64,000 nt of DNA from Myxococcus hansupus. Lineage in GTDB: Bacteria; Myxococcota; Myxococcia; Myxococcales; Myxococcaceae. The translations under genes were made by a program, and so were the position numbers. Below, piece after piece: positions 10,423 through 62,235 of the stretch; positions within the stretch are counted from its first letter, which is position 1; the number at the start of each line of letters is the position of its first letter. Under the pieces are notes generated by a model that saw only the letters and a program-made list of their open reading frames with translations, was not told the DNA's origin and searched no databases. The stretch is taken from contig NZ_CP012109.1 of the NCBI RefSeq assembly GCF_000280925.3, positions 248,001-312,000 of the forward strand, in the 5' to 3' direction.

Positions 10423-10920
10423 ATGGCCAACAACAAGTGGGACAAGCAGCAGTTGATGGAGTTCCTCAAGCGCACCGGTGACGAGCTCAAGCGCACCACC
10501 GATGACCTGCGGGGCGAGGCCAAGCGCCTCCTCAAGGAGGTGAAGGACCCCGACAACCAGGCCAAGGTGAAGGAGGGCCTGGAGCAACTGCGCACCTGGG
10601 CCGCCAGCACCAGCAAGGTCGCCGCGGAGAAGATTGAAGTCGCGGTGCGTCAGGTCGAGGGCGCCGTGGAGCGCGCCTTCAAGCCGGAGGAGGAGGGCGG
10701 CGAGCAGGCCTCCCCCAAGTCCAAGTCGGCCGAGCCCGCCGCGGAGGCCAAGGCCCCCAAGGGCGGCGCTTCCCGCCCCTCGGGCAAGAAGGCAGGGGGT
10801 AAGTCCATTGGCCGCAAGAAGTCCGGTGCCGCCGCCAAGAGCCCCGCGACGAAGGCCGCCAAGAAGACTGCTTCGGGTTCCAAGAAGACGATTGGAAAGC
10901 CGAAGAAGCCCACCGCCTGA
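10423..10920 (+). CDS. fibR: FibR-like regulator with histone H1/AlgP-like Lys-Ala tail
   Basis: This 165-residue protein begins MANNKWDKQQLM; GGAGG at 10409-10413 sets the start. The N-terminal half (to about residue 95) is a charged, helical, phasin-like region (LKRTTDDLRGEAKRLLKEVKD). The C-terminal half is a disordered Lys/Ala/Pro/Ser tail (KKAGGKS, KKSGAAAKS, KAAKKTASG) like histone H1 and Pseudomonas AlgP. In M. xanthus, published work placed fibR, which resembles alginate-biosynthesis repressors and negatively regulates fibrils, immediately upstream of grpS-sglK. Position and composition match. The symbol rests on synteny and remembered literature, not alignment. The tail probably binds DNA non-specifically. 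Confidence 0.7.
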   Translation: MANNKWDKQQLMEFLKRTGDELKRTTDDLRGEAKRLLKEVKDPDNQAKVKEGLEQLRTWAASTSKVAAEKIEVAVRQVEGAVERAFKPEEEGGEQASPKSKSAEPAAEAKAPKGGASRPSGKKAGGKSIGRKKSGAAAKSPATKAAKKTASGSKKTIGKPKKPTA

Positions 10921-59447: not shown

Positions 59448-60095
59448 CTATTCGCCCATCAGCCGCGAGCCCATCCAGAACAGGCCCAGCGCGGCGGAGC
59501 CCACGGCCACCGTGCGCTGCACCCACAGGGTGATTTGCGCGTTCAGGCGGGCGATGCCCTCCGCGAAAATCAGGCCCACCACGCCCATGCCGATGAGGAT
59601 GCCCAGCGCGAAGCCGGGCAGGTACATCCACGCGGCCGCGCTCATGCTGCCGCCCACCAGCAGCGGCGGCAGGGCGAGCAACAGGGAGCGCACGCCGCTG
59701 ACGGCCATCAGCGCGCCCGCGGTGGTGCTCACCGTGTGGACGTGCTGGTGCGGCTCCTGCGTGTGGCCGGGCAGGTGAGGGTGGCCATGGCCCAGGCTGC
59801 TGGGGAAGATGAGCGCGGCCACCGCGAGCGCCACCAGCACCGCGCCGCCGAAGATTTCGGCCCAGCGCTCGAAGGTCTCCGACAGGCCCACGCCCGCCAG
59901 GATGCAGACCGCGGCGATGCCGCCGAGCATGGCCGCGTGGCCCAAGGCGAAACGCACGGCGGTGGCGATGGCGGCGCGGCGCCGGCCTCCCCCCAGGGTT
60001 CCGAGGGTGGCCATGGCGGCGCAGTGGTCGGGCCCCACGGCGTGAAGCATGCCTTGGGACAGGCCGAGCAGGAAGGCGAGGAGAATGGGCTGCAC
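59448..60095 (-). CDS. Ni/Co-type (NicO/UreH-like) membrane transporter
   Basis: A GTG with AGGGTG eight bases upstream starts a 215-residue membrane protein (MQPILLAFLLGLSQG). Six hydrophobic helices are visible. Helix 1-2 carries HAVGPDH, the HX4DH signature of nickel/cobalt transporters, and helix 2 has ALGHAAM. A histidine-rich loop (GHGHPHLPGHTQEPHQHVH) sits near 102-120. Together these point to a NicO/RcnA/UreH family exporter or importer of divalent metal. A His-rich lipoprotein gene diverges 61 bp away. Confidence 0.85.
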   Translation of the reverse strand: MQPILLAFLLGLSQGMLHAVGPDHCAAMATLGTLGGGRRRAAIATAVRFALGHAAMLGGIAAVCILAGVGLSETFERWAEIFGGAVLVALAVAALIFPSSLGHGHPHLPGHTQEPHQHVHTVSTTAGALMAVSGVRSLLLALPPLLVGGSMSAAAWMYLPGFALGILIGMGVVGLIFAEGIARLNAQITLWVQRTVAVGSAALGLFWMGSRLMGE

Positions 60096-60156
60096 GACGG
60101 AACACCCTAGCCGTGCTTCAATCGCGAGGCCAGCAGGAGAGGAGAACCTACCCCGC

Positions 60157-60675
60157 ATGAGGATGACCACCCGACGGCTGTCCGCCGTCATTCCGCTCGC
60201 GCTCTGTTTGCTTCTGTCGCCCGGCTGCGACAAGGGGCCCGACCAGCTCCGGGACGCCGAGGCGACGTACCGTGAGCTCATTGACCGCCGCGTCTCACCC
60301 ATGGATCCGGCGTGGGACCCCGTCATCGCCGCCTTCGATGCGATCGCCAAGGACTCCAAGGCGCGCCCGGCCGCGGACCAGCGCATCGCCGCCATCCGGG
60401 GGCTCCGCGGAAAGCTCCCGCCGCGTCCGCTCGCCACGCCAGGTGCCACCGGCGCCGGGACGACGGAGGCGGACGCCAAGCGCGCCGCCTGCGAGGCCCT
60501 GGCCATCCGGTTGGGGCAGACGCCGGAGGGCCCCGAGCGCGAGCCCCTGCACGCCGCGCTGGAGACGTGCCACAACGAGCTGGTCCGGTTGGAGGCGCAC
60601 AGCCATCCGCCGGGCGAGCACGCCCATGACCACGGCGGTGAGCCGGGCCATCCCGCCCCGCAGGGCCAGCCCTGA
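60157..60675 (+). CDS. His-tailed lipoprotein of unknown function
   Basis: The start MRMTTRRLSAVIP gives 172 residues with a lipobox (LLLSPGC). The rest is helical and charged (DAEATYRELIDRRV, KRAACEALAIRLGQTPEG, LETCHNELVRLEAH). The C-terminus is histidine-rich (HSHPPGEHAHDHGGEPGH), suitable for divalent metal binding. It diverges from the NicO/UreH-like transporter, so a role as a periplasmic metal buffer is plausible but unproven. Confidence 0.8.
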   Translation: MRMTTRRLSAVIPLALCLLLSPGCDKGPDQLRDAEATYRELIDRRVSPMDPAWDPVIAAFDAIAKDSKARPAADQRIAAIRGLRGKLPPRPLATPGATGAGTTEADAKRAACEALAIRLGQTPEGPEREPLHAALETCHNELVRLEAHSHPPGEHAHDHGGEPGHPAPQGQP

Positions 60676-60734: not shown

Positions 60735-61613
60735 ATGCCCATGCCCCAAGCAGGTGACCAGGCCCCCGCCTTCCAGGTGCCCGACCAGGACGGAAACACG
60801 GTGACGCTCGCGCGGTTCGCGGGTCGCAGTGTCGTCCTCTACTTCTATCCGAAGGACAACACGCCCGGATGCACCGTGGAGGCGTGTGACTTCCGGGATG
60901 AGCACTCGGCGCTGGAGGCCGCCGGCGCGGTGGTGCTGGGCGTGTCCACCGACAGCACCGCGAGCCACCAGAAGTTCGCGGCCAAGTTCAACCTGCCCTT
61001 CCCGCTGCTGGCGGACGTGGACCACGCGCTGTCCGAGGCCTACGGCGTCTGGGGCGAGAAGTCGCTCTATGGTCGCAAGTTCCTGGGCATCACCCGCGCG
61101 ACCTTCCTCATCGGACCGGACGGCCGCGTGAAGCAGGTGTGGCCCAAGGTGAAGGTGATCGGCCACGTGGCCGAGGTGCTGGCCGCGCTGAAGGGTGGCG
61201 ATTCGGCCGGAGCCTCGGGGACTCCCGCGGCGAAGAAGGCGTCCGCTGGGAAGAAGGTGGCCGCCGCGAAGAAGGCTCCCGCCGGGAAGAGCGCGGTGGC
61301 GAAGTCGTCCGGCGCGCAGGCTGCTCCGGTCGGCAAGAGGGCGCCCGCGTCGAAGAAGGCCCCGGTCGGCAAGAAGGCTCCCGCGTCGAAGAAGGCCCCT
61401 GTGAGCAAGGCCGCCCCCGCGTCGAAGAAGGCCGCTGTGAGCAAGGCCGCCTCGGCGTCGAAGAAGGCCCCTGCGAGCAAGGCCGCCCCGGCGTCGAAGA
61501 AGGCCGCTGCGGGCAAGAAGCCCACTGCCAAGAAGGCTTCTGCGGCGGCGAAGAAGGCCTCCACGGCGCGGAAGGCCCCGGCGGCGAAGAAGGCTGCTCG
61601 CCCTCGCCGCTGA
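60735..61613 (+). CDS. bcp: Bcp-type peroxiredoxin with histone-H1-like Lys/Ala tail
   Basis: This 292-residue protein begins MPMPQAGDQAPAF. Residues 1-152 are a standard Bcp/PrxQ peroxiredoxin: peroxidatic Cys46 and resolving Cys51 in TPGCTVEACDFRDE, then VVLGVSTDS and DGRVKQVW. The last 140 residues are a low-complexity tail of Lys/Ala/Pro/Ser repeats (ASKKAPVGKK, ASKKAAVSK, KKPTAKKAS, ARPRR) like eukaryotic histone H1 and AlgP. Such a tail could tether the enzyme to DNA. Ordinary Bcp is about 155 residues. Confidence 0.9.
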   Translation: MPMPQAGDQAPAFQVPDQDGNTVTLARFAGRSVVLYFYPKDNTPGCTVEACDFRDEHSALEAAGAVVLGVSTDSTASHQKFAAKFNLPFPLLADVDHALSEAYGVWGEKSLYGRKFLGITRATFLIGPDGRVKQVWPKVKVIGHVAEVLAALKGGDSAGASGTPAAKKASAGKKVAAAKKAPAGKSAVAKSSGAQAAPVGKRAPASKKAPVGKKAPASKKAPVSKAAPASKKAAVSKAASASKKAPASKAAPASKKAAAGKKPTAKKASAAAKKASTARKAPAAKKAARPRR

Positions 61614-61743
61614 GGCTATAGGGAGAGGCACGGGCGGTTCGTCGTCCTTCGGACGTCGCGCCGCCCGGTGGTCTGTACGACCGGCGTGCCCCATCTTCGG
61701 GATGCATCAACAATCAGATTTGAAGGGACCGAAAGGAATCGAC

Positions 61744-62235
61744 ATGCGCGAGCGGAATATTCGGTGGTGGGGGACGGCGGTGGCGGTGGTGGCGGGCACG
61801 ATGGTGAGCGTGGGCTGCGGCCCCCTGCCGGAGACGGGCGGCAGCCAGCCGGATGAGACGCGGGGCAGCTTCGTCGGCCAGCGTGGCGATCAGGCCGAGG
61901 CCATGAAGAACATCGAGGGTGGCAACACCAACGCGGCGCTGCCGCCTTGGACGATGCCCTCGAACCGTGGCTACAACGCGACCATCGGCCAGATTGGCTC
62001 CAGCATCGACCCGCGCACGCCGCAGAACGACGGTGCGCAGAACAAGTCCATCCAGGACGACGCCGGGAAGATGATGCAGAGCCAGTACGCGGTTCAGGGC
62101 GGCGCGGCGTACGCCCCGACGGCCCAGGGTCTGGGCGGTGAGGATGGCGCGGCGCTGGGCGGCAACCGGCGCGGCCACTCCAGTGGCTATGCCCCGTTGG
62201 GCTGGCAGGACCGCAGCGGCCCCTACCGCCGCTGA
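61744..62235 (+). CDS. Small lipoprotein of unknown function
   Basis: AAAGGAA five bases before ATG selects MRERNIRWWGTAVA (163 residues). The lipobox is VSVGC. The mature part is Gly/Asn/Gln-rich and repetitive without a recognised fold (NIEGGNTNAALPPWT, QNDGAQNKSIQDDAGKMM, YAVQGGAAYAPTAQGLGGEDG). It ends YAPLGWQDRSGPYRR. Its last codons and stop are copied again 70 bases downstream. Confidence 0.75.
   Translation: MRERNIRWWGTAVAVVAGTMVSVGCGPLPETGGSQPDETRGSFVGQRGDQAEAMKNIEGGNTNAALPPWTMPSNRGYNATIGQIGSSIDPRTPQNDGAQNKSIQDDAGKMMQSQYAVQGGAAYAPTAQGLGGEDGAALGGNRRGHSSGYAPLGWQDRSGPYRR

Follow-up and report, generated by a model that had tools for sequence, protein, structure and literature searches.

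Myxococcus hansupus encodes a PrxQ/Bcp peroxiredoxin that is extended at its C-terminus by a long basic tail, which suggests a peroxidase moored by this tail to DNA or to a similar negatively charged polymer. The fusion, its conservation, the disorder of the tail in a structural model and the selection acting on its charge were established by computation, and we infer the binding, its target and the benefit. In the preferred reading, to which we give a probability of about one half, the protein consists of a PrxQ/Bcp enzyme and a disordered lysine-rich tether that would bind polyanions, most likely chromosomal DNA, and would hold the enzyme on the nucleoid. The parts are known ones; their combination, a tailed peroxiredoxin, was not found in print among the literature matches listed (titles and beginnings of abstracts, with few subscription journals covered). 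If the tail indeed moors the enzyme to DNA, it would represent a bacterial peroxidase directed to the chromosome through a tail selected for charge and not for sequence; the benefit of location for antioxidant enzymes would become directly testable, with the natural tail-less orthologues as controls, and a wider habit of tail addressing in the lineage would be indicated. The gene was analyzed within a stretch of 64,000 nucleotides, referred to as the window (GC content 68.4%), the features of which are collected in Table 1.

Table 1 Features of the window discussed in the text, with the evidence for their assignment
Feature	Position	Strand	Evidence
FibR-like protein with 67-residue basic C-terminal tail	10423..10920	+	composition; no Pfam family over cut-off
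Upstream neighbour, putative lipoprotein (by eye), His-rich C-terminus	60049..60675	+	conserved, tblastn
PrxQ/Bcp peroxiredoxin core, residues 1-154	60735..61196	+	Pfam AhpC-TSA, NF006960, PDB, alignment, pLDDT
Lys/Ala/Pro/Ser basic tail, residues 155-292, modelled disordered	61197..61610	+	composition, tandem repeats, pLDDT
Stop codon of the tailed Bcp gene	61611..61613	+	ORF list, sequence
Downstream neighbour, putative lipoprotein (by eye)	61702..62235	+	conserved, tblastn

An ordinary peroxiredoxin core with a basic tail

The tailed Bcp is encoded by the open reading frame 60735-61613 (+) of 292 amino acids, the ATG of which is separated from the preceding in-frame stop by two codons (open frame of 294 codons). 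In profile searches its core matched Pfam AhpC-TSA with 139.7 bits and NF006960, the thioredoxin-dependent thiol peroxidases, with 166.1 bits, above the curated cut-off of 140; the narrower NF053650 (PerredPrxQDein) gave 179.6 bits and stayed below its cut-off of 260. Bcp chains of the PDB (e.g. 5iiz and 3gkn) matched the core with E of about 1e-40. Peroxiredoxins carry the motif PxxxTxxC, which includes the peroxidatic cysteine, and a conserved arginine, and in atypical 2-Cys enzymes of the PrxQ type the resolving cysteine follows in the same helix at a distance of five residues. Residues P39, T43, C46 and R121 are invariant across an alignment of 26 Bcp rows, and the sole cysteines of the whole protein are the peroxidatic Cys46 and the putative resolving Cys51, the latter located inside a helix (residues 44-55) of the AlphaFold model. 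Judged by its sequence, the core is an ordinary, complete two-cysteine PrxQ/Bcp peroxiredoxin and a predicted thiol peroxidase; it shares the complete core, the active-site motif and both cysteines with the PrxQ/Bcp proteins named above, from which the M. hansupus protein differs by its additional basic tail of 138 residues. This agrees with an earlier note on this DNA, made from sequence alone, which described a normal Bcp domain with Cys46/Cys51 followed by about 140 residues of Lys/Ala/Pro/Ser repeats.

The 138-residue tail contains 50 Ala, 33 Lys, 17 Ser, 13 Pro, 5 Arg and a single acidic residue, Asp, so that Lys, Ala, Pro and Ser together make up 82% of it. Lysine reaches 24%, against about 1.2% in random sequence of an assumed GC content of 69%, and the coding DNA is built of tandem units of 18/36/72 bases. 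The AlphaFold model, calculated from a 26-sequence alignment in which the first two sequences bore tails and the rest were trimmed to the matched core, gave block-mean pLDDT values of 94-98 up to residue 150 and of 44-67 from there to the end, and it lacks secondary structure past residue 153. In being disordered in the model, Lys/Ala/Pro-rich and nearly free of acidic residues the tail has the composition of an H1-like C-terminal tail. The histone-H1-like profile NF038053, whose cut-off is 80 bits, gave 16.1, and Pfam HC2 was not among the matches of the protein at E≤0.1 in the Pfam search; the likeness to histone H1 asserted in the earlier note therefore stands for composition and fails by profile, which leaves a loose resemblance.

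The host genome (9,490,432 bases in one contig) has 14 further AhpC-TSA matches. A Lys-rich tail was absent from the five of these 14 paralogues with readable C-termini, in which 0 to 5 Lys/Arg follow the match. No second copy of the tail was found in the genome at E≤0.001 with a protein query (next best 0.005; 150 of 1002 candidates scored).

Distribution of the tail among relatives

The Bcp core was used to search 96 genomes of the family, all of which (96/96) had some match. The orthologue set comprised 88 sequences, of which one was a partial match (G027) and the other 87 were best matches of nearly full length; eight genomes with weaker matches only (G013, G044, G048, G049, G084, G085, G086 and G093) were excluded. 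A protein was counted as tailed when the core was followed by 15 or more residues of which at least 20% were Lys+Arg; by this definition 72 of the 88 orthologues were tailed and 16 were tail-less. In the genus the tail is kept in 27/27 genomes, with lengths of 50 to 236 residues, so it is no quirk of one genome, and an artefact of a single genome as its origin is ruled out by the 72 tailed orthologues. The earlier note had proposed a family-wide survey and had named absence of the tail from close relatives with intact function as one finding that would speak against it; the survey found the Lys/Ala/Pro tail throughout the genus and in most of the family. The tail-less orthologues indicate that the enzyme can do without the tether, and we count this against the tether reading.

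Outside the family five of 20 matches were tailed (L246, L249, L259, L262 and L264), the 20 being a non-random set from 19 genomes of the phylum, hand-picked near the top of the listing. The 80 loci from named records were the best-scoring of a longer list and no sample of all bacteria; 79 of them, all besides L046, comprised 78 tail-less proteins and one borderline case from an alphaproteobacterial MAG (L091), whose 15-residue end with 3 Lys and 1 Glu barely reaches the tail definition. Another of these loci (L069) is legible for just two residues past the match, where the contig ends. Record L046 bears the title Comamonas sp. KCTC 72670. Its Bcp is 95% identical to that of M. hansupus and ends in a 174-residue tail, which equals that of a genus member (G066); the Comamonas title looks mislabelled.

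A quick maximum-likelihood tree of 109 Bcp cores was built (the partial core L183 was dropped), which has many open forks and some long branches. On it the tail label requires at least five gains or losses, three of them forced by well-supported branches, and none of 500 label shufflings gave a change count as low as that observed. The tail has therefore been gained or lost several times.

Several further Bcp sequences drew attention by their active site. Two from other families of the phylum (L250 and L256) and one from Latescibacterota (L107) have an in-frame TGA at the position expected for the peroxidatic Cys46, which suggests, by sequence, a selenocysteine PrxQ; several more of the listed Bcp matches have one TGA inside.

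Selection for charge

The 72 family tails vary in length from 19 to 236 residues (median 59), contain 22% to 36% Lys+Arg and 0 to 12% acidic residues (median 3%), and carry a net charge of +4 to +44. The sequence was followed in 21 close tail pairs, which were hand-chosen and are not all independent. In these pairs pN/pS of the tails was 0.40, and Lys/Arg were lost at 3.8% of aligned tail positions, against 20.2% change at other common residues. Since the aligner favours placing Lys on Lys, each tail was also mutated randomly to an equal count of changes and then realigned; under this one simple mutation model without indels the mean loss of Lys/Arg was 12.3% (minimum 10.5% in 20 runs) and the other residues changed at 16.5%. 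In the sole gap-free pair (L022/L023) 0/76 Lys/Arg were lost and 31/159 other residues had changed. The loss of Lys/Arg lies below that in the simulation, and we conclude that the tail is under selection for charge and not for sequence. Some tails of the genus (L026, L035-L037 and relatives) open with a Glu/Asp-bearing stretch before the basic repeats, and this acid-bearing start counts against the tether reading.

Similar tails elsewhere in the genome

The earlier note had pointed to a similar tail on FibR at 10.4 kb and had supposed that the genome reuses the module, and both statements were borne out. The 67-residue end of the FibR-like protein, which we take to be FibR, holds 18 Lys, 2 Arg and 2 acidic residues; its gene lies just upstream of GrpE- and DnaK-like frames (by eye), and no work on FibR was found among the literature matches listed. 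Candidates from two patterns were then read across the host genome, Pfam names being available for ten of them and TopA and ValS being read in part. Lys/Ala-rich tails were thus found at the N-terminus of DNA topoisomerase I (TopA), RsfS and SWIB-domain, EF-hand and DUF1801 proteins, and at the C-terminus of valyl-tRNA synthetase (ValS), ObgE and SET-domain and SUKH-type proteins; further ones belong to a protein without Pfam family (L236), to a 77-residue H1-like protein (L210) and to a PEGA-like exported protein (L186, by eye). Part of these proteins act on DNA and part on RNA or ribosomes, and a few apparently on neither. The SET-domain protein (L187, near 5821600 in the host genome) has a basic H1-like C-terminal tail, and the EF-hand pair of L233 (near 5896600) follows a long H1-like N-terminal tail that matched Pfam HC2 with 42.9 bits against a cut-off of 40.

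The pattern for Lys-rich coding repeats gave 92 matches, many of them overlapping, against 49 for the reversed control, which makes it a poor statistic by itself; a stricter version gave 6 against 0. Across the family the 72 genomes with tailed Bcp had a median of 4 HC2-profile matches (range 0-28) and the 16 with tail-less Bcp a median of 1 (range 0-7), the 8 genomes lacking an orthologue being excluded (Mann-Whitney p = 8e-7, kinship ignored; the tailed Bcp genes themselves can raise the counts). The higher counts in tailed-Bcp genomes suggest that such tails are partly a habit of the lineage rather than special to peroxide defence, which we also count against the tether reading. Two genomes of genus g26 (G091 and G095) have 28 and 18 HC2-profile matches, against the median of 4 in the 72 tailed-Bcp genomes.

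Known systems with basic tails

Targeting of yeast Dot5 proceeds by nuclear import. This eukaryotic protein, a distant sequence relative of the present core (PDB 2a4v, E 1.2e-14), is the nuclear thioredoxin peroxidase of yeast (PMC2754438).

A bacterial comparison is offered by FrzCD of Myxococcus xanthus (PMC5716589). FrzCD binds DNA independently of sequence, its deletion derivative missing residues 7-27 gave no gel shift and was mostly diffuse in cells, and in its relatives the peptide differs in sequence and is still positive. It resembles the protein described here in being myxobacterial and cytoplasmic and in having a tail that varies but is positive throughout, and differs in that its peptide is short, N-terminal and attached to a chemoreceptor, whereas here a redox enzyme is extended by a long C-terminal tail. 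Mycobacterial HupB has a C-terminal tail of PAKK/KAAK motifs that is required for nucleoid association, and similar motifs have been noted in actinobacterial Ku and TopA (PMC5676037); the folded part of HupB, however, is HU, itself a DNA-binding protein. AlgP of Pseudomonas has a tail closely similar to the present one, a C-terminal disordered region of Lys/Ala/Pro repeats with a mutational hot spot, which follows a predicted helical N-terminal domain and not a peroxiredoxin. Fragments of its KPAA-repeat tail bind DNA, and the protein sits on polyphosphate granules, its placement in the cell requiring polyP kinases; for PhaF of Pseudomonas DNA binding is a supposition (PMC9239181).

Proposed function and alternatives

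By analogy with these systems, sequence-independent binding of polyanions is the best-supported function of the tail and a plausible one, with chromosomal DNA as the most likely partner. The calculated pI is 6.4 for the core alone and 10.4 for the whole protein, hence the tail is what would bring this weakly acidic enzyme to DNA and would keep it on the nucleoid. The earlier note placed a peroxide scavenger on the nucleoid, and protection of the nucleoid by a scavenger so placed is unsupported as stated. With an assumed D of 1000 μm2/s, rates of 1e4 to 1e7 M-1 s-1 and 1 to 100 μM enzyme, the depletion length of H2O2 is 1 to 316 μm, and only the fastest and most abundant case comes to about one cell width; a local H2O2 sink was accordingly judged weak as a benefit unless the enzyme is very fast and very abundant. 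Since free H2O2 equilibrates too fast for such a sink, a short-range benefit is likelier: hydroperoxides on DNA or on DNA-bound proteins may be reduced, or oxidation may be passed to DNA-bound partners. More broadly and only tentatively, with the balance somewhat against it, the interchangeable, charge-selected and sequence-free Lys tails could be an address label which moors unrelated enzymes, the peroxiredoxin included, to the chromosome; the outcome would be a bacterial thiol-redox relay bound to the nucleoid, with the nuclear PrxQ relative of yeast as its analogue. A replacement of Dps by the tailed Bcp received no simple support: two Dps-like proteins (L276 and L277, by eye), neither with a Lys-rich tail, are encoded in the host genome, and some ferritin-family match is present in 92 of the 96 family genomes.

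The tails on TopA, ValS, ObgE, RsfS, SWIB and SET proteins keep RNA or ribosomes and polyphosphate live as rival targets. Since similar tails are borne by ObgE and valyl-tRNA synthetase (both C-terminal) and by RsfS (N-terminal), the partner need not be DNA, and the peroxidase might be held on polysomes or in tRNA-rich regions; such sequence is also borne, however, by TopA, the SWIB protein and the 77-residue H1-like protein, and the basic tail of Myxococcus FrzCD binds DNA (PMC5716589), so we regard RNA or ribosomes as an unlikely target. It is rather improbable that the tail is a generic extension for solubility, against aggregation or for membrane contact, or that it modulates PrxQ as a holdase or in its redox behaviour, with no nucleic-acid partner. 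The tails on EF-hand, DUF1801, SUKH and PEGA-like exported (by eye) proteins, which have no evident nucleic-acid role, would fit this, but a solubility tag would not need the near-absence of acidic residues seen here and over the 72 tails, though single tails reach the 12% given above.

Binding of inorganic polyphosphate, which would place the peroxidase at polyP granules under starvation or stress, is improbable to a slightly higher degree. It draws on the kinase-dependent position of AlgP at such granules (PMC9239181) and on the similar tail of the FibR-like protein in the window, whereas the AlgP tail binds DNA too and nothing linked to polyP was seen among the few neighbouring frames listed, a weak argument. 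That the tail is neutral, a functionless product of repeat slippage in GC-rich DNA, is highly improbable: the tandem 18/36/72-base units and the wide spread of tail length among relatives are what slippage would give, but the excess of lysine over that expected from base composition, a loss of Lys/Arg about three times under the neutral simulation and the in-frame Lys-rich tail in every genome of the genus all disfavour it. Though unproven, the nucleoid tether is likelier than any single one of these rivals.

Gene neighbourhood

In tblastn searches the upstream lipoprotein-like gene was matched near Bcp at 61 of 89 loci, the downstream one at 50/89 and a NicO-like frame at 35/89, where the 89 loci include L046, a duplicate of L017, and misses do not equal absences because many loci hold short flanks. 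Neither the upstream neighbour nor the downstream one (61744-62232 searched) matched a Pfam/NCBIfam family at E≤0.1. Within 59448-60675 the NicO-like transporter frame (minus strand, by eye) stands beside the His-rich putative lipoprotein, and the two may form a metal-efflux pair.
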